29,539 nucleotides of DNA from positions 1 through 29,539 of the forward strand of contig JAMOQH010000167.1 of the NCBI GenBank assembly GCA_027064085.1, read 5' to 3'. Below are positions 9,126 through 29,539 of the stretch, one piece after another. How positions within the stretch are numbered: the first letter of the stretch is position 1; the number at the start of each line of letters is the position of its first letter. The position numbers and the translations under genes were made by a program. The DNA is from a bacterium. GTDB lineage: Bacteria; UBP6; JAFGXH01. The notes below the pieces were generated by a model that made no database searches, had not been told where the DNA came from, and saw nothing but the letters and a program-made list of their open reading frames with translations.

Positions 9126-11021
9126 TTACATCCATTCTTCATACCACATCTCAAACATTAATAAAAACCACAATTTAGTTATATTTTGTTTATTTCCATT
9201 AAAATAATCATCTCTAAGTTTAATTATTTCATTAACATTAAAAAAACCCTCTGTTTTCAGCCTCTCTTCATTTAAATACTTCAAAAAATATTCCTTTAGC
9301 TCATCTTTAAACCATTCTATTACAGGAACTCCAAAACCCATCTTTTTTCTATCCATTAACCCTTTTGGTAAATATTTATGAGTTATTTTTTTTAATAAAT
9401 ATTTTTTTATTTTATTTTTATATTTCAAAGAAGATGGTAACTGTGCCATATATTCAATTAATCTATAATCAAGCATAGGTTCTCTTCCTTCAAGGCTTAC
9501 ACTCATTGTTGCCCTATCAACTTTGGTTAGTATGTCATCTACCATATAGGTTTTATAATCAACTGCAAGTATTTTATTTATTTCATCCTTTTCTTTTAAA
9601 GAATTTAAATCAAAATCTGTTTTTAACTCTATGATACTAGACTTAAATAAAGAATAAACATGTTTATTTACAAAAACCTGACTAAAAAACTTTAATATTC
9701 CTATAGAATCATTTAATTTTAATATATTTTTTATCTTTTCATATTTTCTTTCATGTTCATAAATTTTATTCCATAAAGGAATATATTCAGGATTTATTTT
9801 TTCCATAATTTTAACAATAACAGGTTTTATAAATCTGGGAATTTTAAAAAAATAATTATAATATTTTAATACCATTGGGTATTTATTATACCCCATAAAA
9901 ATCTCATCTCCTCCATCAGCAGACAAACTCACTGTAACTTGTTCTCTTGCTAGCTTACTAACTAATGCAGTTGGTATAGCAGAACTATCTCCAAATGGCT
10001 CATCATACATTTTAGGTAACTTAGGAAGAATTTCCAAGGCATCTTTTTGAGTACAATAATATTCAGTATGCTCTGTTCCTAGTATTTCAGCAACTTTTTT
10101 AGCGTAAGGTGCCTCATCAAAGCCCTTTTCATGAAATCCAATTGTAAAAGTTTTTATCTTTTCTTTTCTATTTTTTTGTAATATTGCCGTTACAATACTA
10201 CTATCATATCCACCACTTAAAAACACTCCAACTGGTACATCACTTACCATTCTGTACTCAAATGAAGATTTTAATAATTCTTCAATATGCTCTATTGCTT
10301 CCTCTTCCGTTACATTCAATTTAGGCTTATTATAAAAATCTATTACATCCCAATATTTATTCTCTTTTATTTCCTTATTTTCTAAATTAATTTCAAGATA
10401 ATGCCCTGCTCTAAGCTTATGAGTATCTTTAAAGATTGTATAAGGCTGTAAAATATATCCATATTGTAAATATAAAACCAAAGCATCTGTGTTTATTTCT
10501 TTTACAAAGTTTTTATGCTCATGAAAAGATTTCAATTCACTTGAAAACATTAGTAAACCATTTTTAAAATACCAATATAATGGCTTTACTCCTGCCCTAT
10601 CTCTATAAATGTTAATTTTATTAAGACTTTTATCCCAAATAGCAAATACGAACATCCCATTGAATTTATGAACAGCTTCTTTTCCCCATTTCTTAAATGA
10701 ATGTAAAATAACCTCTGTATCACTATTAGATATAAATTCATCTCCTGATTCTTCAAGTTCAAGTTTAATTTCTGAAAAATTATAGATTTCTCCATTATAA
10801 GTTATTACTAAATTATCATAAAACATAGGTTGATGGCCATGTTTTGATAAATCCAATATACTTAATCTTCTATGTCCAAAGCCTAAATTACAACTGTCCA
10901 ATTGTTCAAATAAATATCCACTATCATCAGGCCCACGATGATGCAAAACATCTGTCATACTCTTTAGTATATTTTTATCTGACTTTTTATTAAAATCTAC
11001 AAAACCACTTATTCCACACAT
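9126..11021 (-). CDS. Asparagine-synthetase-like glutamine amidotransferase (first of two)
   Basis: A 631-aa two-domain enzyme. The N-terminal Ntn glutaminase domain starts MCGISGFVDF with the catalytic Cys2, and keeps RRLSILDLS, TYNGEIYNF (canonical glutamine-binding Glu) and DTEVIL. The C-terminal synthetase domain has the ATP pyrophosphatase loop SGGYDSS at 269-275 and SADGGDEIFMGYNKY. In polysaccharide clusters such proteins (for example WbpS) are thought to amidate uronic acid carboxyls rather than make asparagine. The UDP-glucose dehydrogenase gene 22 bases upstream in the operon fits that role. A plain AsnB function is possible but less likely in this setting. All catalytic residues I can check are present. 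Confidence 0.85.
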   Translation of the reverse strand: MCGISGFVDFNKKSDKNILKSMTDVLHHRGPDDSGYLFEQLDSCNLGFGHRRLSILDLSKHGHQPMFYDNLVITYNGEIYNFSEIKLELEESGDEFISNSDTEVILHSFKKWGKEAVHKFNGMFVFAIWDKSLNKINIYRDRAGVKPLYWYFKNGLLMFSSELKSFHEHKNFVKEINTDALVLYLQYGYILQPYTIFKDTHKLRAGHYLEINLENKEIKENKYWDVIDFYNKPKLNVTEEEAIEHIEELLKSSFEYRMVSDVPVGVFLSGGYDSSIVTAILQKNRKEKIKTFTIGFHEKGFDEAPYAKKVAEILGTEHTEYYCTQKDALEILPKLPKMYDEPFGDSSAIPTALVSKLAREQVTVSLSADGGDEIFMGYNKYPMVLKYYNYFFKIPRFIKPVIVKIMEKINPEYIPLWNKIYEHERKYEKIKNILKLNDSIGILKFFSQVFVNKHVYSLFKSSIIELKTDFDLNSLKEKDEINKILAVDYKTYMVDDILTKVDRATMSVSLEGREPMLDYRLIEYMAQLPSSLKYKNKIKKYLLKKITHKYLPKGLMDRKKMGFGVPVIEWFKDELKEYFLKYLNEERLKTEGFFNVNEIIKLRDDYFNGNKQNITKLWFLLMFEMWYEEWM

Positions 11022-11043: not shown

Positions 11044-12381
11044 TTAAACTCCTATCTGATAATATTCAAAGCCCAATTTTTGAAGTTTTTTAATATTATA
11101 CTGATTTCTTCCATCAAAAATTATATTATTCTTTAATCTTTTTTTTATTTCTTCAAAATCAGGACTTCTAAATTCTTTCCATTCTGTTAATAATAACAGT
11201 GCAGAACTATCATTTAATACATCATACTTAGAATCAAAATATTCAACATTTTCATTATCTTTTAAGTAAAACTCTTTTGCTTCCTTAACAGCTTTTGGGT
11301 CATAAGCTTTAACTTTAGCTCCAAGAGAAGTTAACTTATTAATAATAACAACAGAAGGAGCTTCTCTCATATCATCTGTTTCAGGTTTAAAACTTAATCC
11401 CCAAATAGCAAAGGTTAATCCATTAAGATTATTTCTGTTTTTATCTGTCATAAATCTTTTAATTACTTTGTTCGCAATAACCTCTTTCTGAGATTTATTT
11501 CTTGCTTCAACAGCATTTATAATTTTAGGTTCAAAACCAACATCTTTAGCTATTTTAATTAAAGCCTGTGTATCCTTTGGAAAACAACTACCACCATAAC
11601 CGATACCAGGATATATAAAACTATAGCCTATCCTACTATCACTTCCTATGCCTATTCTGACTTTATTAACATCAGCCCCTACTCTTTCACAAATATTAGC
11701 AATTTCATTCATAAATGAAATTTTTGTTGCGAGCATAGCATTTGCTGCATATTTAGTCATTTCTGCACTTCTTATATCCATAGATATAAACCTGTCATGA
11801 TTTCTTGTAAATGGAGCATACAATTCTCTCATAACTTCTAATGTTTCATCGTTATCCGTACCAACAACAACTCGGTCTGGCTTCATAAAATCATTAATCG
11901 CAACACCCTCTTTTAAAAATTCCGGATTACTTACCACTGAAAATTTAATAGAAATGTTTCTTTTATTTAATTCCTCTGTAATAACCGCTTTAACTTTATC
12001 AGCACTTCCAATTGGAACTGTTGATTTATTAACAACAATAATATTTTTATTAACAGATTTTCCTATTTCTTTGGCAACAGCAAGTAAATACTGTAAATCA
12101 GCACTACCATCTTCACCCATTGGAGTTCCAACTGCAATAAAAATTATATCAGAATCATTTATAACTTCATTTAATTTAGTATTAAATCTCAATGTATTAT
12201 TTTTTATTCCTCTTAAAACCATCAGCTCAAGACCTGGTTCATAAATAGGAATAACACCTTTCTTTAACCCTTCTATCTTATCTCTGTCAATATCAACACA
12301 AGTTACATTATTACCCATTTCAGCAAAACAAGCACCTGCAACTAAACCAACATAACCTGTTCCTACAACAATTATTTTCAT
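11044..12381 (-). CDS. ugd: UDP-glucose 6-dehydrogenase
   Basis: A 445-aa cytoplasmic NAD-dependent enzyme expected to oxidise UDP-glucose twice to UDP-glucuronate. The NAD motif is [18 protein letters not shown] (6-23). [15 protein letters not shown] (151-165) provides the catalytic Glu/Lys region, and YGGSCFPKD holds the thioester-forming Cys266. [14 protein letters not shown] and DPKAVKEA mark the C-terminal domain. Overall it matches Ugd/TuaD rather than the WbpA/TviB branch found at 27234-28520, so the two dehydrogenases probably have different substrates. Its start overlaps the stop of the upstream nucleotidyltransferase by 4 bases, suggesting that the two enzymes are made in step and may act consecutively. 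Confidence 0.9.
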
Positions 12382-13247
12382 ATTTCCTCACTAACAATAT
12401 TTAATAAATAATCACCATACTCATTTTTTATATTATTTGCAATATTTATTAACTGCTCTTTATTAATATAATTCTTTCTATATGCAATTTCTTCTATACA
12501 TCCAAATTTTACACCTGATTTTTCCTCTATATCCTTTACAAAAACAGTTGTTTCAACAAAAGATTTATGAGTACCTGTATCAAACCATGTATTACTTTCA
12601 TCTATTAATGTTACCTTTAATTTCTTATTTTTTAAATAAATTTTATTCACATCAGTTATTTCAAGTTCTCCTCTTTTAGAGGGCTTTAAAGATTTTGCAA
12701 TATTAACAACCGAATTATCATAAAAATATAAACCAACAACAGCATAATTCGATTTAGGTTTTAAAGGTTTCTCTTCAATTGATAAAACATTCATATCGTT
12801 ATCAAATTCAGCTACCCCAAATCTTTCTGGATCATTTACTTCATAACCAAAAACAGTTGCTGTTTCATTTTTTAGTAATGCATTACTAAAAATATCATAT
12901 ATTTTATCACCATAAAAAATATTATCCACTAAAATCAAAGAAACATTATCACTTCCAATAAATTCTTCTCCAATAATAAAAGCATTTGCTATTCCCTTTG
13001 GCTCATATTCAATTTCATACTTTATTGATATTCCAATATTACTTCCATCTCCTAAAACAGATTTAAATAACTTAATATCTTTCTGCATCGCAATAATTAA
13101 AATATCCTTTATCCCCATACTCATAAAAGTTGACAAAGGATAATAAATCATTGGTTTATCATAAATTGGAAGAAGTGCCTTTGGTATTATTTTTGTTACA
13201 GGATACAATCTTGTTCCAAGACCACCTGCCAATATTATCCCCTTCAT
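12378..13247 (-). CDS. rfbA: RfbA-type sugar-1-phosphate nucleotidyltransferase
   Basis: A 289-aa cytoplasmic enzyme of the glucose-1-phosphate thymidylyltransferase family. Motifs are [73 protein letters not shown] and FDTGTH, and the length is normal for RfbA. A small deviation is LVDNIFYG, where most RfbA proteins I recall read LGDNIFYG. No RfbB, RfbC or RfbD gene lies in the window, while the next gene, overlapping by 4 bases, is ugd. It may supply dTDP-glucose to genes elsewhere, or UDP-glucose to Ugd if it accepts UTP. It has a promoter directly upstream and an AGAGGG ribosome site. Confidence 0.85.
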
Positions 13248-13273
13248 TATTTATACCCTCTAGATAAAAAAGC

Positions 13274-13302
13274 ATTATACATATAACAAACTTTTATTTC
13301 AA
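13274..13302 (-). promoter_or_regulatory. Sigma70-like promoter of the rfbA-ugd block
   Basis: On the minus strand TTGAAA (13302-13297) and TATAAT (13279-13274) are separated by exactly 17 bases (13296-13280). The TGA stop of the upstream glycosyltransferase is embedded in the -35 hexamer. Predicted start of transcription is near 13267, giving a leader of about 20 bases before the ATG at 13247. It has the same architecture as the promoters at 24449 and 28553. Confidence 0.6.
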
Positions 13303-14456
13303 TCAAAAAGCAATTTAAAATATAACTTCTCTGTTTTTTCTGCAACAGAAGATAAAGAAATATTATCACTAATAAATTTTCTAGCATTTTTTCCCATTAA
13401 AATTCGTTCTTTCCTATTATAGTATAAATATATTATTTCATCTGCAAAACTTTCCATATCATCAATATTAACTATTTTACCAGAATTATATTGCTCCAAT
13501 ATATCAATACTCCCTGAAACTTTTGTTGAAACAACAGGTAAGCCGCAACTTAAAGCTTCTAGCATCGCATTTGATAAACCTTCCATTTTTGAAGGAAGTA
13601 AAAAAATATCTGAAACCTGATAATATTTCACGGTATTTTCTTGTAAACCCCAAAATATTATATTTTCATTTAGCTTGTATTTTTTTATTTTTTCTAAAAA
13701 CTTTTCTTTTTCCTCTCCATCTCCAACAATCAAAAGAATAGCAGAAGGAATTTTATCAAGCACTTTTTTCCAAGCATCAATTACTCCCAATGGATTTTTA
13801 GCATTACTTAATCTTCCACAATAAATAGCAGTAAAAACATCTCTATTTAATTTAAGTTTTTCTCTTATAGCAATTTTTTCTTCTAAACTTAAAGGAATAA
13901 ATATATTTTCATCAACTCCATTTGGAATCATAAAAATTTTATCTTGACTTATACCAATTTTTTTTATTTCATTGACAGCACTTTTACTAGTTGCAATAAA
14001 ACCATCAATTCCATAAAATGATTTTTCTAACATATTTTTAACTTTATAATCATTAAAAACATTCATTATTCCCATAGACCCCGTACTAGTAGTTTTTAAA
14101 ACTACTTTCTTTTTCATTAGTTTTGCAACCAAAATAACTATTGCAGATGTAAGCCCGTATTGATGCAAGTGAAACACATCAAATTTTCTTCCACGTACTA
14201 ATAAAAAAGAAATTAATGAAGAATTAAATGAAAGCTGATGAATTTTCTTCTTATAAACACTAAAAATACGATTAATTATAACTCCATCAAGAACTTCATA
14301 TTTTTTCCATTTTTTATTTCTTTGTTCTGTTACGACCTCTACCGTATGCCCTCTTTGGACTAAAGCTCTTGAAAGCCTTAATGCGGCTATCTCATATCCT
14401 CCAGTCATTGGATAAAACTGAGGAGCAACCATTAAAATTTTTAATTTTTTACTCAT
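13299..14456 (-). CDS. Glycosyltransferase family 4
   Basis: A 385-aa GT-B glycosyltransferase. The N-terminal domain shows LMVAPQFYPMTGGYEIAALR and HLHQYGLTSA. The donor domain shows YCGRLSNAKNPLGVIDAW (R205, K210), IVGDGEEKEKF and the E-x7-E motif EGLSNAMLE (E292 and E300) followed by ALSCGLPVVSTKV. It is complete and of usual length. It is the last gene of the unit that starts at the fusion gene, 6 bases after the membrane protein gene, and is followed by a 51-base gap with a promoter. The motif series is very similar to that of the GT4 at 8040-9113, so the two may be related paralogues, with different specificities unknown from sequence. Confidence 0.85.
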   Translation of the reverse strand: MSKKLKILMVAPQFYPMTGGYEIAALRLSRALVQRGHTVEVVTEQRNKKWKKYEVLDGVIINRIFSVYKKKIHQLSFNSSLISFLLVRGRKFDVFHLHQYGLTSAIVILVAKLMKKKVVLKTTSTGSMGIMNVFNDYKVKNMLEKSFYGIDGFIATSKSAVNEIKKIGISQDKIFMIPNGVDENIFIPLSLEEKIAIREKLKLNRDVFTAIYCGRLSNAKNPLGVIDAWKKVLDKIPSAILLIVGDGEEKEKFLEKIKKYKLNENIIFWGLQENTVKYYQVSDIFLLPSKMEGLSNAMLEALSCGLPVVSTKVSGSIDILEQYNSGKIVNIDDMESFADEIIYLYYNRKERILMGKNARKFISDNISLSSVAEKTEKLYFKLLFD

Positions 14457-18421: not shown

Positions 18422-19072
18422 TTATTTATTTAAGATATTTCCAATCACTCTCGCAGGGCTTCCTACAACAATATCATAACTATTAACTGTTTTAAGAACA
18501 ACGGAGGCTAAACCTACTATTCCAAATTCACCAATTTCTAATCTTTCAAGTAAAGTTGAATTACTTCCAATATGTGCACCATTTTTTATAAGAACTCGGC
18601 CACCAATACTTGCATTATTGGCGACAAAAACCATTTCTTCCATTTTACTATCATGACCAATAAAACTCTGGGCATACATCTGAGAATGGTTACCAATTTC
18701 TACATTTGGACTAACTAATACCATAGGCATTAATACAACTCCAAACCCAATTTTGGCTTTCCTAGAAACAACAGAAGAAGGATGAATTACAGTTGCAAAT
18801 CTTTCATCTGGAATTTCAAGATTTTTTAACATTTTATATCTTTTATGAGCCTGTTTTACATTGGACATCGCAAATATAAAAAAATAATCTTCAGGAAGTT
18901 TTTTCCAATCCATATTTACGATTCCCCCTAAAACAGGATAACCATTAATTTCATTTTCAAAATCGTTCAAAAAGCCCACACATTCTATGTCTTGTCCATT
19001 TTTTTTACAATCTTCAATAGTAGAAGCAATCACTGTACCATTTCCCCTACCACCAATTATTACAACTTTCAC
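18422..19072 (-). CDS. PglD/NeuD-type sugar acyltransferase
   Basis: A 216-aa cytoplasmic enzyme of the NeuD/PglD family. The N-terminal domain begins MKVVIIGGRGNGTVIAS, the nucleotide-sugar-binding Rossmann half. It is followed from about residue 95 by a left-handed beta-helix of hexapeptide repeats (KIGFGVVLMPMVLV, NVEIGNHSQM, SIGGRVLIKNGAHIGSNS). H140 in IGHDSKM aligns with the catalytic histidine of PglD, and VVGSPARVIG closes the helix as in the family. PglD N-acetylates a UDP-4-amino sugar; here the preceding genes for acyl-CoA chemistry suggest an unusual acyl donor instead of acetyl-CoA. The start overlaps the CitE-like gene by 4 bases. Family is firm, the donor is inference. Confidence 0.82.
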   Translation of the reverse strand: MKVVIIGGRGNGTVIASTIEDCKKNGQDIECVGFLNDFENEINGYPVLGGIVNMDWKKLPEDYFFIFAMSNVKQAHKRYKMLKNLEIPDERFATVIHPSSVVSRKAKIGFGVVLMPMVLVSPNVEIGNHSQMYAQSFIGHDSKMEEMVFVANNASIGGRVLIKNGAHIGSNSTLLERLEIGEFGIVGLASVVLKTVNSYDIVVGSPARVIGNILNK

Positions 19073-19962
19073 TTATCCTTCTCCTCTATTAACTTTATTA
19101 AACTTAAAACTTTTTCTGCTCTTTTTAACATAGGAGGTCCTATCATTTTTCCATTTAACATTGCAATTCCAGAACCATTTTTTCTTGATTCTATTATTGC
19201 TTTTACAATTGACTTAGACCTTTCAACTTCTTCTTTTTTAGGTGTAAAACAAGTATTTGCCAATTTAACCTGATTTGGGTGAACTAATAAAGAACCTGCA
19301 AAACCCATTTCAAATGATATTGTTTCTTCTTTAATAAAACCATCTTCATTTTTTATTTGTAAATATGGGGTATCTACAGGAAGAATTCCTGCTGCTCTTG
19401 CAGCTAAAGCAATTACAGCTCTTGGATAATCAAAAGAAATTGGAGGTTCTCCATGCAGTCCTTCTAAATCATTAAGGTAATCCTCACCACCAAAAGTAAT
19501 CGCAACAGTTCTTTTAGATGCCATTGCAATATTATATATATCTAAAATAGCAGATGTAGTCTCAATTAATGGAGTAAATGCAAAGTGAAAATGCTCTATA
19601 TTGTTCTCATTTTCCAGTTGGGTAAAAAGCTTGTCATAATAAATCATATCATCTGCAGTATATACTTTAGTTAGCATAAAACCATCTATATCTTTATGTA
19701 AAACATATTTTAAATCTTCAAATACTAAATTACTTTCCAAAGGATTAATTCTTACAAATACTTTCTTGTCTTTAAATCTCCCCATGTCAAGAAACTTCTT
19801 GACATTTTTTCTGGCTTGATCTTTGAATTGTTCTGGTATTGAATCTTCGAGATCAAGTATAATTGCATCTGCTCTAGATTCTAAACCATGTATAATAAAA
19901 CTTTCTTTATAAGTTGGAACAAATAAATAGCTTCTTAATAAGAGCGTCTTTTTATCTATCAT
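19069..19962 (-). CDS. CitE/HpcH-type C-C lyase (malyl- or methylmalyl-CoA lyase-like)
   Basis: A 297-aa TIM-barrel enzyme of the HpcH/HpaI aldolase/citrate lyase beta family. Motifs are RSYLFVP (10-16), ADAIILDLEDSIP (31-43), KVFVRINPLES (67-77), FAFTPLIETTSAIL (127-140) and TFGGEDYLNDLEG (156-168). E134 and D161 sit where the family binds Mg2+, and R71 where the substrate carboxylate is held. CitE-like and malyl-CoA lyases cleave or form malyl-CoA, beta-methylmalyl-CoA or citramalyl-CoA. The upstream MaoC hydratase overlaps it by 11 bases and is of the mesaconyl-CoA hydratase type, so the two may make or interconvert a hydroxy-dicarboxylyl-CoA. Such genes are central-metabolism types and their place in a glycan cluster is unusual. 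Confidence 0.82.
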   Translation of the reverse strand: MIDKKTLLLRSYLFVPTYKESFIIHGLESRADAIILDLEDSIPEQFKDQARKNVKKFLDMGRFKDKKVFVRINPLESNLVFEDLKYVLHKDIDGFMLTKVYTADDMIYYDKLFTQLENENNIEHFHFAFTPLIETTSAILDIYNIAMASKRTVAITFGGEDYLNDLEGLHGEPPISFDYPRAVIALAARAAGILPVDTPYLQIKNEDGFIKEETISFEMGFAGSLLVHPNQVKLANTCFTPKKEEVERSKSIVKAIIESRKNGSGIAMLNGKMIGPPMLKRAEKVLSLIKLIEEKDK

Positions 19963-20422
19963 ATTTCTCTCTTAATTTAACTAAAACCTTTCTTTTGAAT
20001 CTAAGAACATCAATATCATTTTGATTATAAGCAATAGATTCAATGTAAACGATACCTTGACTAGGGTTTGATTTAGAAACTCTTTTTTCCAAAATTTTTG
20101 TTTTAACATATATTGTGTCATTAATAAAAACAGGTGCTAAATGATCAATAGTTTCATACATAAGATTTGCAATAGCTTTTCCACTAATATCAGGAACAGT
20201 AATTCCCACAGCTAAACTAAAAACTAAAGTTCCAACAACAAGAGGCTTTCTATACTTTTCCGTTTTACAATAATCAATATTAGTATGTACAGGATGATGA
20301 TTCATTGTTATAAGGCTAAAAAAATTATTATCACTCTCAAAAATTGTTTTAGAAAGTGAGTGTTTAATCATATCACCTACTATAAAATCCTCAAAATAAT
20401 TTCCCATTTTACTTGATTCCAT
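19952..20422 (-). CDS. MaoC-type acyl-CoA hydratase (mesaconyl-CoA hydratase-like)
   Basis: A 156-aa hot-dog-fold protein. GNYFEDFIVGD opens the domain and LITMNHHPVHTNIDYCKTEKYRKP holds the catalytic region, with His at the family position. The common hydratase SGD-x-NP-x-H motif reads TMNHHPVH here, a form I recall from beta-methylmalyl-CoA/mesaconyl-CoA hydratases paired with malyl-CoA lyases. LVVGTLVFSLAVGI and APVFINDTIYVKT are further MaoC features. The start chosen (20422) directly follows the stop of the asparagine-synthetase-like gene and has AAGGGG 5 bases upstream; the Met at residue 6 lacks such a site. Expected to act on an enoyl/hydroxyacyl-CoA; the exact acyl group is not visible from sequence. 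Confidence 0.8.
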   Translation of the reverse strand: MESSKMGNYFEDFIVGDMIKHSLSKTIFESDNNFFSLITMNHHPVHTNIDYCKTEKYRKPLVVGTLVFSLAVGITVPDISGKAIANLMYETIDHLAPVFINDTIYVKTKILEKRVSKSNPSQGIVYIESIAYNQNDIDVLRFKRKVLVKLREKYDR

Positions 20423-22321
20423 TTAAACCCCTTCTATCTTTTCCCCATTAAGAAATATTCTTGTCCACCATTCAAAATTCATAAAAGACCATATCAGAAG
20501 CCGGTGATTTACCTTTTTATTAAAATGTTCATTTAATATTTTTTTGATATAGTCAGGGTTAATAAATTCAGATGAAACAGTCTTTTTATTTAATAACAAG
20601 TCTTTAATATATTTTGCATTTTCACCTCTATACCACGACTCATCAGGAGCAGAGAACCCTTGCTTTTTCCTATTTATTATTTTTTCAGGAATAAACCCCA
20701 TCATTGCCTGGCGCAGAACATTCTTTCCATCATTATATTCTTGATATGATTTCTTTTTTTTTCTAAAAGTATTTTCATCAATTTTTTTCATATTTTCCAA
20801 ATTTGCAAGTTTATGCCTTATTGGTATTTTTTGAGCAAAATTAACTAAATCATTATCCATAAAAGGAAACCTTTCTTCTAAACCATTAGCCATTGCAAGT
20901 TTATCACCAACTAATAAAAGCCCCGGCAAAAAAGTTTTTATTTCAAAATACAAAGAATTTTGTATATGCTGCTCTGGAGTATCATATTTTAACTTATCAT
21001 TAAACAGAAAAACTCTTTCAAATATTTTACGGGGTTCATTTACATCAGTATTATTAAATACATCTTTTTGAAACAATATTTTCTTATCATTATCAGGAAC
21101 TAATCTCTGCCATGAATTATAGTAATCATTAAAAAATTCCTGCTGATTCAATGAGCGAAAGACCCGATAATATCGCCATGGATATCCTGCAAAAAGTTCA
21201 TCTCCACCAGTACCTTGTAAAGCAACTTTTACAAATTTAGAAGCCAATCTACTAATATAATAATTGGGATAACTCATTCCTACACGCAAATCTTCAAGGT
21301 GCCATACAACTCTCGGTAAAGACCAACTTAAATCTCCTGCATTAATCACTTGTTCATAATGCTCTGTTTTAAAAAAATTAGCCATTAGTTCAGCATCTCT
21401 TCTCTCATCATAATTTGCTTCAACTCCAGTTACTTCAGACATATCAAAACCAGCAGTAAAAGTAGTAAGTCTTTTTACATGATTAGAAGCAATAGAAGCA
21501 ATAGAACCACTATCCATTCCACCTGAAAGATAAGAACCAACAGGAACATCTGCAATCATCTGTCTTGCAACAGCTTGTTTCATTAATCTTTCTGTTTCTT
21601 CCTTCGCTTCCATAAAACTAATTGTTTCATCAGGATTTGAAAAATCATAATCCCACCATGACACATGCTTTACAATTGTTGTATTTTCATTAATTTTAAC
21701 AGTATTTGCCGGTGGTAACATAATTACATCTTTAAAGAGAGTTTGAAATGTAAATTGATTTTGAAAAGTAAAATATTCATTCAAGGCGTAATTATTAAGT
21801 CTGATATTAAAATCAGAATGTTTCATGATTGCTTTTACCTCTGATGCAAAAACTATTTTTCTGCCATCAAACCAATAATACAAAGGTTTAATTCCAAATC
21901 TATCTCTACTTAAATATAATGTTTTTTCTTTATTATTATATGCACCTATAGCAAACATACCATTAAAGCGTTCAAATATCTCAGGTCCATACTCAGCAAG
22001 TCCTTCAACTATTACTTCCGTATCAGTTGTTGATATAAATTCATGTCCTTTTGCCTTTAATTCCTGTTTCAACTCCAAAAAATTATATATACAACCATTA
22101 AAAACCACAGTCCACTCACCATTTTGTGATGTCATTGGCTGAGTTCCTCTTGCAGAAACATCTAAAACAGCTAATCTTTTATGACCAAATCCAAGATTTT
22201 TACTAACAAAATATCCTTCTCCATCAGGACCACGATGCGCAATAGAGTTTGCCATATCTTTTATTAATTTTAAAGTTACGGGTTCCTGATTTAAATTAAA
22301 TACCCCAACAATTCCACACAT
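20423..22321 (-). CDS. Asparagine-synthetase-like glutamine amidotransferase (second of two)
   Basis: A 632-aa two-domain protein. Cys2 (MCGIVGVFNL) is the expected glutaminase nucleophile, and the ATP loop SGGMDSG is at 266-272. GTGGDELFAGYPWRYY and VGDKLAMANGLEERFPFMDN are synthetase-domain motifs. The glutamine-binding motif reads VFNGCIYNF, with Cys77 where AsnB and the other copy in this cluster have Glu; a similar NGCIYN form occurs in some other amidotransferase subfamilies, as I recall. It overlaps the fusion gene by one base and touches the MaoC gene, so it belongs to the acyl-sugar module. It may amidate a carboxyl group on a sugar or on the acyl substituent. Whether glutamine or ammonia is the nitrogen source is open. 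Confidence 0.82.
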   Translation of the reverse strand: MCGIVGVFNLNQEPVTLKLIKDMANSIAHRGPDGEGYFVSKNLGFGHKRLAVLDVSARGTQPMTSQNGEWTVVFNGCIYNFLELKQELKAKGHEFISTTDTEVIVEGLAEYGPEIFERFNGMFAIGAYNNKEKTLYLSRDRFGIKPLYYWFDGRKIVFASEVKAIMKHSDFNIRLNNYALNEYFTFQNQFTFQTLFKDVIMLPPANTVKINENTTIVKHVSWWDYDFSNPDETISFMEAKEETERLMKQAVARQMIADVPVGSYLSGGMDSGSIASIASNHVKRLTTFTAGFDMSEVTGVEANYDERRDAELMANFFKTEHYEQVINAGDLSWSLPRVVWHLEDLRVGMSYPNYYISRLASKFVKVALQGTGGDELFAGYPWRYYRVFRSLNQQEFFNDYYNSWQRLVPDNDKKILFQKDVFNNTDVNEPRKIFERVFLFNDKLKYDTPEQHIQNSLYFEIKTFLPGLLLVGDKLAMANGLEERFPFMDNDLVNFAQKIPIRHKLANLENMKKIDENTFRKKKKSYQEYNDGKNVLRQAMMGFIPEKIINRKKQGFSAPDESWYRGENAKYIKDLLLNKKTVSSEFINPDYIKKILNEHFNKKVNHRLLIWSFMNFEWWTRIFLNGEKIEGV

Positions 22322-24414
22322 TATTTTATTTTCTCCACTAACTTATTTACAATAATCTCCTGCTGTTTAAAAGTTAGCTCATCAAATAAAGGAAGTGTTA
22401 AACAGTGTTCAAAGGCATAAGTACTATCCTTAAAATCTCCTTTTAATTCAACTAAAGAATGATTATTAAAAGCAGGATGCTGATGTAAAGCATAAGTTCC
22501 TATTTGAACTTCTATTCCTTCTTCTCTCATTTCGGTCATTATTCTATCTCTATCATTTACATAAATACAAAATGACTGTCTTGAATGTTTTCCATCTTTG
22601 GTTGTTTTAGGTATTACAATATTATGTTTTTTAAATAATTCAACATAATTATCTGCAAGTTTTAATCTTTTTTCCAATAAAGACTCTACATGTTTCATTT
22701 GAGCAAGTCCTATTGCAGACGAAACATTTGAAAGTTTATAATTTGTACCTATCTTATCAAAAATAATACCTTTTCTGTCTGCTGAATTATTAATTCCAAA
22801 ATGTTTATATGAATACATCCACTTTGCCCATTCATCATTATCAGTAGTAATCATACCACCTTCACCTGTTGTAATAAACTTTCTTGGATGCAAACTAAAC
22901 ACTGAAATATCAGCAAATGTACCAACTTTTTTATTTTTATATTCTGCTCCAATAGAACAAGCTGCATCTTCTATAATATATAAACCATACTTTTCTTTTA
23001 TTTTATTTAATCTTTCATAATCTAAAGGATTTCCAAAACCCGAAACAGGAATTATAGCTTTAGTTTTACTTGTAATTGCTTTTTCTAACTCATCATAATC
23101 AATGAGCATATCTTCTTTATTTGAATCCACAATAACCACTTTAGCTCCAACTATAGGAACAACTGATGCCGTTGCAGGATATGTATAATCTGGAACAATT
23201 ACCTCATCTCCCTCTCCTATGCCTAAACATCTTAAAGCAACTTCCAATCCTGTTGTACATGATGTTACAGCAATGGCATGTTTAGAACCAATATAATCCT
23301 TAAATACTGATTCAAATTCTCTTGTAACTGGTCCTTCTGTTAAATAACGACTTTCAAGAACATCAACAACATTATCTTTAATTTCTTGATTAATAAATGG
23401 CCTAATTAGTGGTATTTTATCATTTACAACTGTTTTCTTTTTGTCAATACCTATTTCTATTCTCCAATCTATCAATTTCTGTAAACCTTCCCTCAAAGAG
23501 TATTTAAACTTAAAACCCAATTCCTTTTCTGCCTTTTGTCTAGAACCAATTCTATTTTTAACAAACTGCCTAGCATCATCTTCGCTATAAGGTTTATATT
23601 TAACCTTTAAATCAGAACCCTTCAAGTCTAAAATTGTATCACAAAGCTCTTTTATTGATGTTTGAACCTCTGTTCCTACATTATAAAACCCCATATCAAC
23701 ATCTGATTCTAGTGCAGCGATATTACATCTTGCAATATCTTCAACATAAATAAAATCATAAGCCTGAGAACCATCTCCATTAATAGTAGGAGCCTCATTT
23801 GCTTCAATTTTATTTAGCATGATTGGTACAACTCCAGTGTAGGCAGCATGTTGGTCTTGACCAGGTCCATAAACATTCATATATCTAAGCCCAATAATAG
23901 GAAGCTTATATCTATCATTATAAGCTGTTGCCATTGCCTCACCTGCAATTTTAGTTGCTCCATAAAAATTTGTATTATTGAATGGATGATTTTCTGTCAT
24001 TGGTAACTCAACCGCATCTCCATAAACAGAAGCAGAAGATGAATATATTAATTTTTTCACTTTATTTTTAACACAAGCTTCCATAACATTAAATGTTCCT
24101 TCAATATTTACATGAAATGCTGTTCTTGGAAAGTCTTTGCAATGTAACAACCACATTGCAGCTAAATGAAAAACATAATCAACACCTTCCATTGCCTGAT
24201 TTAAAACATCAATCTCTCTTACATCTCCCCCAAAAGGATAAATTGAACATCTTGAATCCTTTAACGACTCTTCAATGTTTTCCATCTTTCCTCTGCTGAA
24301 ATTATCATATATTATTATTTCTTTTACATTTGTTTTTAATAATTCTTTAATAACAAAGCTACCAATAAAGCCAGCCCCACCAATAACTAATACTTTTGAA
24401 TTTTCTAAATTCAT
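22321..24414 (-). CDS. Fusion of NAD-dependent sugar epimerase and DegT/DnrJ/EryC1 aminotransferase
   Basis: A 697-aa two-domain enzyme. Residues 1 to about 325 are an extended SDR: IGGAGFIGS (11-19), SSSASVYG (125-132), Y151 and K155 (NFYGATK), and LRYMNVYGPGQ (176-186). The SSSASVYG loop lacks the Asp/Glu of 4,6-dehydratases and decarboxylases, so an epimerase or C-oxidising enzyme is more likely. From about residue 335 it is a PLP aminotransferase: RYLTEGPVTREFE, TSCTTGLEVAL, IEDAACSIGAEYK and FSLHPRKFITTGEGG with the probable PLP lysine K512. Each half is near the usual length of its stand-alone family. Both catalytic sets look intact, implying two steps on one nucleotide sugar. It opens the translationally coupled module, behind its own promoter and an AAGGAG site. 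Confidence 0.88.
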   Translation of the reverse strand: MNLENSKVLVIGGAGFIGSFVIKELLKTNVKEIIIYDNFSRGKMENIEESLKDSRCSIYPFGGDVREIDVLNQAMEGVDYVFHLAAMWLLHCKDFPRTAFHVNIEGTFNVMEACVKNKVKKLIYSSSASVYGDAVELPMTENHPFNNTNFYGATKIAGEAMATAYNDRYKLPIIGLRYMNVYGPGQDQHAAYTGVVPIMLNKIEANEAPTINGDGSQAYDFIYVEDIARCNIAALESDVDMGFYNVGTEVQTSIKELCDTILDLKGSDLKVKYKPYSEDDARQFVKNRIGSRQKAEKELGFKFKYSLREGLQKLIDWRIEIGIDKKKTVVNDKIPLIRPFINQEIKDNVVDVLESRYLTEGPVTREFESVFKDYIGSKHAIAVTSCTTGLEVALRCLGIGEGDEVIVPDYTYPATASVVPIVGAKVVIVDSNKEDMLIDYDELEKAITSKTKAIIPVSGFGNPLDYERLNKIKEKYGLYIIEDAACSIGAEYKNKKVGTFADISVFSLHPRKFITTGEGGMITTDNDEWAKWMYSYKHFGINNSADRKGIIFDKIGTNYKLSNVSSAIGLAQMKHVESLLEKRLKLADNYVELFKKHNIVIPKTTKDGKHSRQSFCIYVNDRDRIMTEMREEGIEVQIGTYALHQHPAFNNHSLVELKGDFKDSTYAFEHCLTLPLFDELTFKQQEIIVNKLVEKIK

Positions 24415-24448: not shown

Positions 24449-24477
24449 ATTGTACAGTAATAAGTACTTTATTTCAA
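24449..24477 (-). promoter_or_regulatory. Sigma70-like promoter of the fusion-gene module
   Basis: On the minus strand TTGAAA (24477-24472) and TACAAT (24454-24449) are separated by 17 bases. The -35 hexamer is made of the last two sense codons (Leu-Lys) of the upstream aminotransferase gene. A start of transcription near 24442 would leave a leader of about 28 bases before the ATG at 24414. Confidence 0.55.
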
Positions 24478-25614
24478 TACATTTTCACAAATAAATTCAA
24501 TTTCTTTATCATTCAAATAAGGATTCATAGGCAAACTTATGATTTCATTACTAATTGATTCAGCCACAGGAAAATCCCCCTTTTTATATTCAAGATGCTC
24601 AAAAGCTTCCTGTAAATGCAAAGGAATCGGATAATGAACAGCAGATGGAATACCATTTTCCTTTAATTTAACTTGCAATCCAGCTCTATTCTTTACTCTA
24701 ATAGAATACTGTGCATAAGTTGACACATTAAACTCCTCAACAAACGGTAAAATAATAGGTTCCAATCCCCTCTCGGGAGGGGTGGCAAACTTGTGTTTGC
24801 TGGGGTGGGTAATACTTCCCTCAAATTTTTTATTATATTTCTCCGCTACTTGGTTTCTTAACTTAATATTTTCATCAAAATACCTAAGCTTAACTCTCAA
24901 AATTGCGGCCTGAATAGTATCCAATCTTCCACCTATACCAATAAATTTATGGTAATACCTCTTAGATTGTCCGTGCAATCTTAAACTTCTTATCTTTTGA
25001 GCTAAAACTTCATCATTAGTAAAAACAGCACCTCCGTCCCCAAAACAACCTAGTGGTTTTGCAGGAAAAAAACTAGTTGTAGCTAAATTTGATAAATTAC
25101 AACTTTTTTTACCTTTATATTCTGCCCCAAAAGATTGCGCAGCATCTTCAATAACTATTAAATTATATTTCTGTGCAATTTTGTTAATTTTATCCATATC
25201 AGCGATTTGTCCAAACAAACTAACAGGAATAATTGCCTTTGTCTTAGATGTTATTTTTTCTTCAATTTTATTAGCATCAATGTTATATGTCTTTTCATCA
25301 ATGTCAACAAAAACAGGTTTTGCCTTTAAAAACGCTATTGTTTCTGCTGTTGCAATAAATGTAAACGGTGTTGTTATAATTTCATCACCAGGTTGAATAT
25401 CTATAGACATCATAGCTAAAATCAATGCATCTGTACCACTACTACAAGTAATAGCATACTTCGCCCCAGAAAATTCTTCAAGTTCCTTTTCAAGCAATGA
25501 AACATCATCACCCATAATATAATTTGACTTATTTAAAACATTTTGTATTGCATTATCAATATCATTTTTATGTAGTTGATAGTCCTTTTGTAAATTTGCA
25601 AAATCTATTTTCAT
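24469..25614 (-). CDS. WbpE/WlbC-like DegT/DnrJ/EryC1 aminotransferase with an in-frame repeat insertion
   Basis: A 381-aa PLP enzyme expected to aminate the 3-keto group of UDP-GlcNAc-3-keto-uronate, as WbpE does. SSGTDALILAMM (58-69), IEDAAQSFGAEYKGK (155-169) and SFFPAKPLGCFGDGG with the probable PLP lysine K186 are clear, and GIPSAVHYPIPLHLQ is the usual C-terminal motif. It is about 20 residues longer than typical WbpE. The excess lies at residues 269-286 (THPSKHKFATPPERGLEP), which are encoded by a palindromic repeat element. The reading frame is kept on both sides. An AAAGGA ribosome site precedes the ATG. Its partners WbpD-, WbpB- and WbpA-like are directly upstream in the operon. Confidence 0.88.
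   Translation of the reverse strand: MKIDFANLQKDYQLHKNDIDNAIQNVLNKSNYIMGDDVSLLEKELEEFSGAKYAITCSSGTDALILAMMSIDIQPGDEIITTPFTFIATAETIAFLKAKPVFVDIDEKTYNIDANKIEEKITSKTKAIIPVSLFGQIADMDKINKIAQKYNLIVIEDAAQSFGAEYKGKKSCNLSNLATTSFFPAKPLGCFGDGGAVFTNDEVLAQKIRSLRLHGQSKRYYHKFIGIGGRLDTIQAAILRVKLRYFDENIKLRNQVAEKYNKKFEGSITHPSKHKFATPPERGLEPIILPFVEEFNVSTYAQYSIRVKNRAGLQVKLKENGIPSAVHYPIPLHLQEAFEHLEYKKGDFPVAESISNEIISLPMNPYLNDKEIEFICENVLK
24764..24813. repeat. Double-hairpin palindromic repeat inside the aminotransferase gene
   Basis: Plus-strand structure: CCCCTC (24767-24772), a 4-base TCGG loop, GAGGGG (24777-24782), then GCAAAC (24785-24790), a TTGT loop, GTTTGC (24795-24800), and a GC-rich tail TGGGGTGGGT (24801-24810). 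It is far richer in G and C than its surroundings. It resembles dispersed elements I recall from Bacteroidota and related genomes, of the form CCCCTC...GAGGGGTGG...GGGGTGGGT. Only one copy lies in this window, so its dispersed nature is inferred. Confidence 0.7.
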
Positions 25615-25666
25615 TTTGTCCTTTAGCTAATTACCATTTGAAACATACAAATTATAAATAATTTGA

Positions 25667-25687
25667 AATCGTAGCAGTGCTACGATT
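25667..25687. repeat. Perfect 10-bp inverted repeat in the intergenic gap
   Basis: AATCGTAGCA (25667-25676) and TGCTACGATT (25678-25687) are exact reverse complements around a single G. It lies in the 97-base gap between the WbpD- and WbpE-like genes and shares the core CGTAGCA...GCTACG with the palindrome at 25725-25745. It begins 10 bases upstream (in the minus direction) of a TATAAT-like hexamer at 25651-25656. In RNA it would form a tight hairpin, but no T-tract follows, so it is not a convincing terminator. Confidence 0.7.
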
Positions 25688-25711
25688 CTACAGCACATTA
25701 TCTTTTAATGA

Positions 25712-26293
25712 TTATTTACTGTACAGACGTAGCACAGCTACGTCTCTTTTGCTACCCTTTTTATCCAATTGATATTCCCCAAATTCATCCTTAGCAAAAC
25801 CATTTTTATCAAAAATCAATCTATTACCAGCTATTCCCACCCAACCAATTTGCTTTGCAGGAACCCCTACAATTAAAGCAAAATCAGGAACATCTTTATT
25901 TACTACAGTTCCAGCACCAACAAATGCATATTTACCTATAGTAACACCACACACAATAGTCACATTTGCTCCTATTGCTGCTCCTTTTTTTACCAATGTT
26001 TTTTTATATTCATCTTTTCTAACTATAAAAGACCTAGGATTTATTACATTAGTGAAAACCATTGATGGCCCTAAAAATACATCATCTTCGATCTCAACAC
26101 CTTCATAAATTGAAATATTATTCTGAACTTTCACTCCACTACCAACTTTTACTCTTGGCCCAACAACACAATTCTGTCCAAATGAACAATTATCACCAAT
26201 AATAGTACCATTCATAATATGATTAAAATGCCAGATTTTTGTATTTTTACCAATAACTACATTTTCATCTATGTAAGAAGATTCATGTATCAT
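25712..26293 (-). CDS. WbpD-like UDP-sugar N-acetyltransferase
   Basis: A 193-aa left-handed beta-helix acetyltransferase expected to N-acetylate the 3-amino group of UDP-GlcNAc3NA, as WbpD does. Hexapeptide repeats run from [10 protein letters not shown] through [16 protein letters not shown] to [25 protein letters not shown], followed by [11 protein letters not shown] and the C-terminal [11 protein letters not shown], a WbpD/WlbB feature. The last 11 residues ([11 protein letters not shown]) are mostly encoded by a palindromic repeat (25725-25745) and do not look like a natural C-terminus. The ATG overlaps the WbpB-like gene by 4 bases. Function is well supported by family and neighbours. 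Confidence 0.88.
25725..25745. repeat. Perfect 9-bp inverted repeat in the 3' end of the acetyltransferase gene
   Basis: AGACGTAGC (25725-25733), ACA, GCTACGTCT (25737-25745) is an exact inverted repeat. It recalls a dispersed palindrome of the GAGACGTAGC...GCTACGTCTC type that I associate with Bacteroidota and allied genomes. It encodes residues DVAVLRL of the acetyltransferase and shares its core with the palindrome 37 bases downstream in the transcript direction. Confidence 0.7.
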
Positions 26294-27234
26294 ATTTTCT
26301 CCTTTAATAAAGGATGATAATCACCTTTTAAACCAATTGCCTTAGCATTTCTAATAGCAAACGCAATATCTATTGAATTTCGAGCATTAGAAAGTCCAAA
26401 ACCATTACCTTTTAATATCTCTCTGTATGAATCAGTATGTAATTCAGTGAAACCACCACTAAATTCTAGCTCCTTCTCTCCTATAGTTATAGACCTAAAT
26501 GTTCTTTGCCCCTTTTCTTTTATCTCTTTTGGTAACATATTGCTATCAACAGATAAAAACCATCTTACTCTCGCTCGTTTTAACTGTAAAAAACCAGAAT
26601 TTGTATGAGGTTCGGCAAAATGAACTATATTTTTTTCAACTTTACCAAAAATATATGTAAGCATATCAAAAAAATGAATACCAATATTTGTAGCAACTCC
26701 ACCTGATTTACTGTTATCACCTTTCCATGAAGTAAAATACCAATGCCCTCTACTTGTTATATATGTTAAATCAACATCATAAATTTTATCTTTTGGCCCG
26801 TTATCAACCATGTTTTTCAATTCAATAATTGACTTATGCAACCTTAGCTGAAAAATAGTATTAACATTTCCCTCACTTTCTTCTTCAATTTCCATTAAGG
26901 CATCAAGATTCCATGGATTTAAAACAATAGGTTTTTCACATATTGCATTACTACCACTTCTAAGCGCAAATCTAATATGAGCATCATGTAAATAATTTGG
27001 AGAACAAATTGAGACATAATCAATTTTATTTCCTTTTCTCCTTAATTTATCAAGATGCCTATCAAATCTTTCAAATTCAGTAAAAAAATCAGCATCAGGA
27101 AAATAACTATCTATAATACCAACACTATCACTTTTATCAAGAGCAGCAATTAATTGATTATTAGTATCTTTAATCGCCTTCATATGTCTTGGAGCAATAT
27201 ATCCAGCAGCCCCAATAAGTGCAAATTTCTTCAT
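26290..27234 (-). CDS. WbpB/WlbA-like NAD-dependent C3 dehydrogenase (Gfo/Idh/MocA)
   Basis: A 314-aa cytoplasmic oxidoreductase, normal length for WbpB/WlbA. It has the N-terminal nucleotide motif [28 protein letters not shown] and the family signature [12 protein letters not shown] (K of EKP being catalytic). [15 protein letters not shown] in the C-terminal domain carries the His usually required. It would oxidise C3 of UDP-GlcNAcA to the 3-keto sugar used by the WbpE-like aminotransferase. The ATG overlaps the WbpA-like stop by one base. WbpB-type enzymes recycle NADH using 2-oxoglutarate; nothing in the sequence speaks against that here. Confidence 0.88.
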
Positions 27235-28520
27235 TACAACCTTCCATCAACTAAATCTTTATCCAAAAAACTTTTTATATCATAAACAACAGTATTTTTG
27301 TTTTTAAAATCATTAATATTCAATTTGTAAAATTCTTTATGAGCAACAGCAAGTACTATTCCATCATATTTTTTATTTTTAATATCATTAATATCTTTTA
27401 AATCAATATTATATTCATGTTTAACTTCATTACTGTCAGCCCATGGGTCATACACATCAATATTACAATTAAAATCCCTAAGCTCATTGTAAACATCTAT
27501 AACTTTTGAATTCCTTATATCAGGACAATTTTCCTTAAAGGTTATACCCAAGAGTAATATATTAGAATCCTTGATTTGAGTACCTTTCTGTATCATCAGT
27601 TTTACAACTTTATTTGCAACAACCATGCCCATATTATCATTAATTCGTCTTCCTGATAAAATAACTTGAGGATTATAACCAACAGATTCGGCTTTATATG
27701 TTAAATAATAAGGGTCAACACCTATACAATGCCCTCCAACAAGCCCTGGTGTAAATGGCAAAAAATTCCATTTTGTTCCTGCTGCTTTTAAAACATCTAT
27801 AGTATCTATGCCTATTTTGTCAAAAATAAGAGCTAATTCATTTACAAATGCAATATTTATATCTCTTTGAGAGTTTTCAATAACTTTTGCTGCTTCAGCA
27901 ACTTTTATAGATGAGGCTTTGTGAGTTCCTGCTTTAATTATAGATTTATATATATTATCTATTTTATCTGCAATTTCAGGAGTAGAGCCTGATATTATCT
28001 TTTTTATAGTTGTTAGAGTATGTACTTTATCTCCAGGATTAATTCTTTCAGGGCTATAACCACAATAAAATCCGTCATTGAACTTTAAACCAGAACCATT
28101 TTCCAATAAAGGCACGCAAATTTCCTCTGTACACCCAGGGTAAACAGTTGATTCATATACAACAATATCTCCTTTTTTCAGAACTTTTGCAACTGTTTCC
28201 GTTGCTTTAATTACAGGAGTTAAATCAGGATTTTTATGAGCATCTATTGGTGTTGGAACAGTAACAATATAAAAATTACTATCCTTAATTTCACCTAAAG
28301 AAGTAGTACACACAAGAGTAGAATCACCTTTAATAACTTCCTTTAATTCTTCACTAGTAGTCTCAAGCGTTCTATCGATACAATTCATCAACTCATCAAC
28401 ACGCTCCTCATTAATATCAAAGCCAACAACTTTATTTTCTTTAGCAAATTCTACAGCTAATGGTAATCCAACATAACCAAGACCTATTACTGCAATTTTT
28501 ATAGAACTATCTATTTTCAT
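27234..28520 (-). CDS. wbpA: WbpA-like UDP-N-acetylglucosamine 6-dehydrogenase
   Basis: A 428-aa NAD-dependent enzyme of the UDP-glucose/GDP-mannose dehydrogenase superfamily, WbpA/TviB branch. The Rossmann motif is [16 protein letters not shown] (11-26), followed by [14 protein letters not shown] (87-100), [16 protein letters not shown] (152-167) and [13 protein letters not shown] with catalytic Cys265. The C-terminal NAD/substrate domain has [13 protein letters not shown]. It should convert UDP-GlcNAc to UDP-GlcNAcA, the first step of the diacetamido-uronic acid route whose other enzymes follow at once. A GGGAG ribosome site lies 6 bases before the ATG and a near-consensus promoter just upstream. 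UDP-GalNAc or another UDP-HexNAc as substrate cannot be excluded. Confidence 0.88.
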
Positions 28521-28586: not shown

Positions 28587-29539
28587 TCAGTTTTGTTTAA
28601 CATTAAAAAAATCCAAATACCAATCAATAAATTTATCAACACCTTCTTTAATTGTTGTTTCAGGCTTATATCCTAAATCCCTAACTAAATCATCTACATT
28701 TGCATAAGTAGCAACAACATCACCGGCTTGAAGTGGCATCATATTTTTTTTAGCAATTTTACCAATTTTCTCTTCAATGGCTGTAATAAAATCCATTAAT
28801 TTTATAGGTGAATTGTTTCCTATGTTGTAAACTTTATAAGGAGCCTTTGAATCAGCAGGGTCAGTATTTTTACCACTCCATTCAGGATTACCCTTTGGAG
28901 GATTATCAATTACTCTTATAATTCCTTCTACGATATCATCAACATAAGTAAAATCCCTTACCATTTCTCCATTATTAAATACATTTATGGGTTTATCTTC
29001 AAGTATAGCTTTGGTAAATAAAAAAAGAGCCATATCTGGCCTACCCCATGGGCCATAAACTGTAAAAAATCTTAAACCTGTTGTTGGTAAATTAAAAAGA
29101 TGACTATAAGAGTGAGCCATTAACTCATCAGATTTTTTAGTTGCAGCATAAAGACTAATTGGGTGGTCAATATTATCAGAAGTTGAAAACGGTAAACTCT
29201 CATTAGCTCCATAAACAGATGAACTTGAAGCATATACGAAATGTTTTATATTATTTTGTCTTGATGCTTCGAGTACATTTATATACCCAACAATGTTACT
29301 ATCTATGTAGGCATAGGGATTAACAAGAGAGTACCTTACACCTGCCTGAGCAGCTAAATTGCAAACTTTATCAAATTTACTATTAGCAAATAATTCATTA
29401 ATTTTTTCTCTATCTTCAAGTTTTAATTTCATAAAACTATAATTTGAATATTTCTTACTTTTAATTATTTGCCCATAAACAATATCATCTTTTTCAATTC
29501 CATGCTCTTTTAATCGTCCATATTTTACATTTATGTCAT
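28587..29539 (-). CDS. UDP-glucuronate 4-epimerase-like enzyme (partial, start outside window)
   Basis: An extended SDR epimerase of the CapI/UDP-glucuronate 4-epimerase type, expected to interconvert UDP-GlcA and UDP-GalA. An internal ATG at 29432 is not the start: the same frame stays open to the window edge and encodes [15 protein letters not shown] and [10 protein letters not shown], which match the region of this family before the second Rossmann strand. About 317 residues are visible, and some 30-35 N-terminal residues with the GxxGxxG motif lie beyond the edge. [45 protein letters not shown] (Tyr/Lys catalytic pair) and [15 protein letters not shown] are diagnostic. It lies before the wbpA promoter, so it may belong to a transcript starting outside the window. 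Confidence 0.87.

Follow-up and report, generated by a model that had tools for sequence, protein, structure and literature searches.

Why would a MaoC hydratase and a CitE-like lyase, enzymes of acyl-coenzyme A (acyl-CoA) chemistry, be encoded inside an amino-sugar gene cluster? The question is raised by a 29,539-nucleotide stretch of DNA (hereafter the window), which is the entire contig JAMOQH010000167.1 in the 3.65 Mb draft genome GCA_027064085.1 of a bacterium of the phylum UBP6 (28 genomes sampled), and which carries both genes within a run of five on the minus strand:

22321..24414, minus strand: epimerase/aminotransferase fusion (697 amino acids), a C4-epimerase-like short-chain dehydrogenase/reductase (SDR) of WbpP/WbgU type (residues 1-325) joined to a DegT/PseC-type sugar aminotransferase (Pfam/NCBIfam)
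20423..22321, minus strand: asparagine-synthase-like glutamine amidotransferase with an N-terminal Cys2 (632 amino acids; Pfam/NCBIfam, sequence)
19952..20422, minus strand: MaoC hydratase of the glycan-locus clade (156 amino acids; Pfam/NCBIfam, tree)
19069..19962, minus strand: CitE1, a CitE-like protein of the Gly-Pro-Pro (GPP) clade, HpcH/HpaI-CitE family (297 amino acids; Pfam/NCBIfam)
18422..19072, minus strand: PglD/NeuD-like hexapeptide N-acyltransferase (216 amino acids; PglD_N plus hexapeptide)

These gene families are seen directly, as is their coupling: open reading frames and Pfam/NCBIfam matches confirm the five calls and coordinates given by an earlier, sequence-only reading of the window, the TMNHHPVH motif in MaoC, and overlaps of 1, 0, 11 and 4 bases running from the fusion to the PglD-like gene. 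Taken together with gene neighbourhoods in other genomes, they indicate that the MaoC-CitE1 pair is probably a dedicated acyl-donor cassette for sugar N-acylation. MaoC and CitE1 would make or tailor a short hydroxyacyl-CoA, and the adjacent N-acyltransferase, PglD-like in the window, would transfer the acyl to an amino group set on a nucleotide sugar by a DegT aminotransferase, a direction of the pathway that we infer.

Comparative genomics gives the acyl-donor role good support. With MaoC as its sole query, a genome scan gave 224 relatives, the best 80 of which were kept as main loci, hence with a bias to close relatives, and their genes were called by a simple open-reading-frame script; they come mainly from Bacteroidota, but also from Ignavibacteriota, Clostridia, Akkermansia, Calditrichota and others. 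Cultured bacteria with the cassette include Maribacter antarcticus DSM 21422, Odoribacter laneus, Phocaeicola abscessus and Myroides marinus. CitE1 follows MaoC in 81 of the 83 loci scored for neighbourhood, at a spacing of -14 to +16 bases in 77, while a PglD-like gene lies at most six genes away in 66 and a DegT gene is found in 57. An AAC(3)-like N-acyltransferase follows CitE1 in seven further loci that have no PglD (two tested with Pfam, the rest assigned by clustering), and locus L010 carries another hexapeptide transferase; an N-acyltransferase of one of these three types is thus near the pair in about 74 of the 83, a conservation observed directly in many lineages. When 393 further genomes of the Bacteroidota group were drawn independently at random, MaoC was present in six, and all six loci contained CitE1 with its GPP motif and a PglD-like gene, among aminotransferases, hexapeptide transferases, epimerases, flippases, glycosyltransferases and cytidylyltransferases. 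The trio is also present in two more families of the source phylum, in the window's own order DegT-MaoC-CitE-PglD in one (G006) and as PglD-MaoC-CitE plus a second CitE in the other (G015). It is single-copy per genome, and the source genome holds no second or catabolic copy of MaoC or CitE. The search for a conserved MaoC-CitE-PglD-like triple in polysaccharide loci that the sequence-only reading had proposed therefore recovers such a set, whereas its remark that these enzymes are not usual in glycan clusters fails for this subfamily, whose close relatives sit in just such clusters. The pair is a mobile, glycan-specific cassette. Carriage by phage was considered and rejected, scans of IMG/VR having given no relative; two phage-labelled records from human faeces, MT835692.1 and MT835693.1, encode CitE-like proteins (26-27% identity) and are possibly host DNA.

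The sugar pathways around the pair vary, and include RmlA/RmlB/FdtA/DegT, PseB-like/DegT/cytidylyltransferase/NeuB and TviB/TviC-like sets, named here from family membership and established pathway knowledge; in the pseudaminic-type loci (PseB-like/NeuB) a PglD-like gene stands in the place of the N-acyltransferase. It is mainly because the pair is kept and the acyltransferase type swapped across these different pathways that we read it as an acyl donor. The same contexts bear on whether MaoC and CitE might instead be catabolic passengers within the cluster, serving the breakdown of itaconate, citramalate or leucine. Relatives on plasmids do lie beside catabolic genes, namely isovaleryl-CoA dehydrogenase and methylcrotonyl-CoA carboxylase in Rhizobium and CoA-transferase and MmgE/PrpD in Pseudosulfitobacter. 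However, the glycan context is repeated across phyla, and the glycan-locus MaoC and CitE1 each branch apart from their catabolic counterparts, MaoC forming one side of a branch with support 92 in a quick-method tree with long branches. Gene context and trees led us to rule this origin out as highly improbable.

Some observations weigh against an acyl-donor role: no N-acyltransferase could be recognised near the pair in about nine of the 83 loci (some of them at contig ends), we know of no glycan structure for any organism carrying the cassette, and CitE1 is without the lid Asp of its relatives, so that C-C bond formation is only presumptive and its reaction may be a different one. This last point concerns the following residues:

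19132..19140, minus strand: G275-P276-P277 of CitE1, in place of the lid Asp of CitE and malyl-CoA lyases (invariant in 82 aligned sequences)
19453..19455, minus strand: His170 of CitE1, a candidate replacement residue only (76 of 82 aligned)

An AlphaFold2 model of CitE1, used only for its fold and lid, is a TIM barrel with a C-terminal lid (predicted local distance difference test score 95.2) whose best fold matches are malyl-CoA lyase and CLYBL, and the Mg ligands E134 and D161 and the active-site R71 are present in 100% of the 82 sequences. The lid Asp is conserved across the CitE-like superfamily except in the malyl-CoA thioesterase group, which has Glu (Zarzycki and Kerfeld, PMC3832036); it is retained in our controls (E. 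coli CitE, a plasmid CoA ester lyase, 4l9y, 5vxc and 1sgj). In CitE1 we see directly that the position is Gly in all 82 sequences, within the invariant GPP, a departure from the catalytic subgroup of malyl-CoA and citramalyl-CoA lyases, whose lid Asp reaches the active site next to it. CitE1 also scores below the curated NCBIfam cut-offs for citE (210 vs 443.4 bits) and RipC (148.1 vs 375), and CitE1, the catabolic CitE and a second CitE-like protein (CitE2) separate on a tree built without the lid columns, again by a quick method and with long branches.

Given the change from Asp to Gly, an ordinary malyl-CoA-lyase or Claisen reaction cannot be assumed. The sequence-only reading had joined acyl-CoA chemistry to an amino-sugar pathway, and that much stands with the conserved set of MaoC, CitE and acyltransferase in polysaccharide loci; the chemistry it proposed would start from glyoxylate and acetyl- or propionyl-CoA, condensed by CitE1, after which MaoC would modify the product, PglD would pass it on, and its free carboxyl would be amidated by the amidotransferase. 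This route appears unlikely for a clade without the lid Asp. The fold matches and the retained metal ligands and Arg do speak for such a condensation, N-malyl sugars exist (PMC3210612), and the amidotransferase (AsnB-like), SDR and aminotransferase recur with the cassette in three lineages, but most cassette loci are without an AsnB-like gene.

CitE1 might alternatively act in a complex with CitE2, whose Glu would fill the lid position in the manner of the malyl-CoA thioesterase group. CitE2 occurs in 17 loci, in most of them directly upstream of MaoC, and in four of the six random-draw loci, it carries Glu at the Asp position, and the lid of malyl-CoA lyases reaches into the neighbouring subunit (PMC3832036). 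Because CitE2 is missing from the window and from most loci, such a complex is not a general answer, and we hold it to be distinctly unlikely. A tentative proposal, somewhat less likely than not, is that CitE1 founds a biosynthetic CitE-like subgroup working without the lid Asp, and that with MaoC it makes an acyl group undescribed on bacterial sugars. The protein could, for example, dispense with deprotonation by taking a malonyl-type CoA or a similar nucleophile, or rely on another residue; His170 as a universal replacement base was discarded, as only 76 of the 82 sequences carry it. The cassette exposes a CitE subgroup whose chemistry its relatives do not reveal. A CitE with Gly at the lid position is also encoded on a plasmid of Streptomyces sp. 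NBC_01527 (L101, 1-5650), in a biosynthetic cluster with acetaldehyde dehydrogenase, DmpG aldolase, ketoacyl synthase III, acyl carrier protein (ACP), MaoC and GNAT genes.

What acyl group might then be made? The partner enzyme offers some guidance:

20285..20302, minus strand: active-site stretch N41-H46 (NHHPVH) of MaoC (sequence alignment)

MaoC matches the Pfam MaoC and mesaconyl-CoA hydratase families at 56.1 and 55.8 bits, both above the gathering cut-off, and is close to mesaconyl/itaconyl-CoA hydratases while remaining below the curated NCBIfam cut-off for the itaconyl-CoA hydratase RipB (127.3 vs 340 bits). Its N41, like the corresponding Asn of beta-methylmalyl-CoA dehydratase, occupies the Asp position of plain R-specific hydratases; since the Asn motif is also found in a catabolic relative (L090), it marks a wider MaoC family rather than the glycan clade. 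Relatives of both enzymes act on hydroxy-dicarboxylyl-CoA esters, and for this reason a group of that kind (malyl, methylmalyl, citramalyl or hydroxymethylglutaryl) is our best single guess by analogy, at slightly short of even confidence. Another candidate product, rather less likely, would be a plain 3-hydroxyacyl, for instance 3-hydroxybutyryl, formed by MaoC hydrating crotonyl-CoA with CitE1 as an accessory or non-lyase protein. That group is a frequent non-acetyl N-acyl on such sugars (PMC3210612), and MaoC is the best conserved member of the cassette (58-74% to the window) beside a CitE1 without the lid Asp; on the other hand, the Asn of MaoC departs from plain R-hydratases, and the retention of CitE1, its metal site intact, in nearly every locus would be left unexplained.

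The acceptor sugar can be approached through the genes directly upstream of the fusion on the same strand. The sequence-only reading had described a five-gene module, and while its coupling holds, the unit is longer by four genes of the type that makes the uridine diphosphate (UDP) sugar UDP-GlcNAc3NAcA, spanning 24469-28520 (first four entries below; the last two entries are active-site features of the fusion and of the PglD-like enzyme):

24469..25614, minus strand: WbpE-like DegT aminotransferase (Pfam/NCBIfam)
25712..26293, minus strand: WbpD-like hexapeptide acetyltransferase (Pfam/NCBIfam)
26290..27234, minus strand: WbpB-like Gfo/Idh/MocA oxidoreductase (Pfam/NCBIfam)
27234..28520, minus strand: TviB/WbpO-like UDP-GlcNAc C6 dehydrogenase (Pfam/NCBIfam)
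24019..24042, minus strand: SSSASVYG active-site stretch in the SDR half of the fusion, of epimerase type without the D-E pair of 4,6-dehydratases
18653..18655, minus strand: His140 of the PglD-like enzyme, at the position of the PglD catalytic His (invariant in aligned homologues)

The TviB/WbpO-, WbpB-, WbpD- and WbpE-like genes are the set expected for UDP-2,3-diacetamido uronic acid, and we infer as the most economical scheme that a UDP-2,3-diacetamido hexuronic acid made by these enzymes would be oxidised and aminated at C4 by the fusion, converted to the uronamide by the amidotransferase and acylated at N4 by the PglD-like enzyme. The resulting C4-amino uronamide is an assignment we favour with some reserve, somewhat below even confidence. 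The SDR half of the fusion, compared with WbpP and 6dnt, aligns with the WbpP/WbgU C4-epimerases, and in L010 the two halves are encoded by neighbouring, unfused genes (82% and 65% identity). Homologues of the SDR (71-82%) and of the amidotransferase (72-76%) recur in L010 and L115 together with the aminotransferase and the cassette; in L115, two small genes, one for a Polbeta-type nucleotidyltransferase, lie between the SDR and aminotransferase genes (13268-14007) and form a possibly toxin-antitoxin-like insertion. Comparable SDR-aminotransferase pairs make the 2,3,4-triamino uronamide of Bordetella O-antigens and the 2,3,4-triamino arabinose of Psychrobacter.

The amidotransferase scores 441.2 against a cut-off of 267.1 bits in the NCBIfam family of glutamine-hydrolysing asparagine synthases and starts with MCGIVG, which provides Cys2. 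An AsnB-like gene of any kind occurs in only 4 of the 83 cassette loci, and amidotransferase accompanies epimerase and aminotransferase in only three lineages, so that AsnB was dropped as a general cassette part despite its linkage there. Because close homologues of the amidotransferase are encoded alongside the epimerase and aminotransferase, uronamide formation is the more economical and more likely role, and amidation of the acyl's free carboxyl, as in the sequence-only reading, is graded weak. A second asparagine-synthase-like amidotransferase at 9126-11021 best matches the XrtA/PEP-CTERM type.

The cluster probably continues past the contig, since an upstream SDR gene (28587-29537) runs off the contig end and no clear RmlB partner for RmlA (12378-13247) is present in the window. 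Promoter-like matches in the window are at chance level (73 found vs 75.4 expected). Elsewhere, WbqC-like genes adjoin the cassette in L015 (8502-9197), L023, L028, L060, L069, L081 and L089, and ATP-grasp ligases recur next to it in other loci, which suggests that some loci additionally attach an amino acid or another group. A divergent protein of about 320 amino acids, encoded in L005 (13649-14599) and 14 other loci, often by ATP-grasp and PglD-like genes, had no Pfam match in the two members scanned and by eye resembles DegT aminotransferases. In two Clostridia cassettes an MmdA-like carboxyltransferase adjoins MaoC and CitE1 (L047, 10469-12022; L055, 11336-12877) and may feed the acyl-CoA step.

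Serotype and immune recognition depend in part on the N-acyl groups of surface sugars. For most of the unusual groups no acyl-donor genes are known, and the cassette provides a testable gene set for predicting unusual N-acyl sugars from the genomes of gut and marine bacteria. In the literature searched, no paper joins MaoC, HpcH and polysaccharide biosynthesis or describes a MaoC-CitE pair in this role. The nearest parallel is the set of R-group genes wfpC-G in the O-antigen locus of F. psychrophilum, where N-acyl variation has been proposed to arise from dedicated acyl-making genes and a PglD homologue whose predicted role is the N-acylation of an amino sugar (PMC6519341). That system employs ACP, ketoacyl synthases and a ketoreductase, with MaoC unmentioned (PMC6519341), whereas type II fatty-acid families such as ACP and ketoacyl synthase are absent among the scanned window genes. 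The window enzyme shares PglD_N, hexapeptide repeats and the His at the catalytic position with PglD, VioB and NeuD, but sits with an acyl-CoA-type gene pair and would not rely on acetyl-CoA alone; its TIGR03570 score is just under cut-off (153.1 vs 160.8). With the malyl- and citramalyl-CoA lyases (4l9y, 5vxc, RipC) CitE1 has in common the fold, metal ligands, Arg and C-terminal lid, and it differs from them in the invariant Gly-Pro-Pro that replaces the lid Asp and in falling under the citE and RipC cut-offs. In the RipB/RipC itaconate and Rv2498c-type leucine/itaconate pathways MaoC likewise adjoins CitE, both being distant homologues of the cassette proteins, but the context there is degradative (CoA transferase, carboxylase or acyl-CoA dehydrogenase). 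Finally, N-malyl producers include Pseudoalteromonas rubra ATCC 29570, Vibrio vulnificus CECT 5198 and Shewanella algae BrY. The O-antigens of P. rubra and V. vulnificus bear N-malyl amides on 2,3-diamino-glucuronamides (PMC3210612), structures that would fit the window, with its genes for a 2,3-diamino uronic acid, its amidotransferase and its route to a non-acetyl N-acyl group, the link being one of chemistry only.

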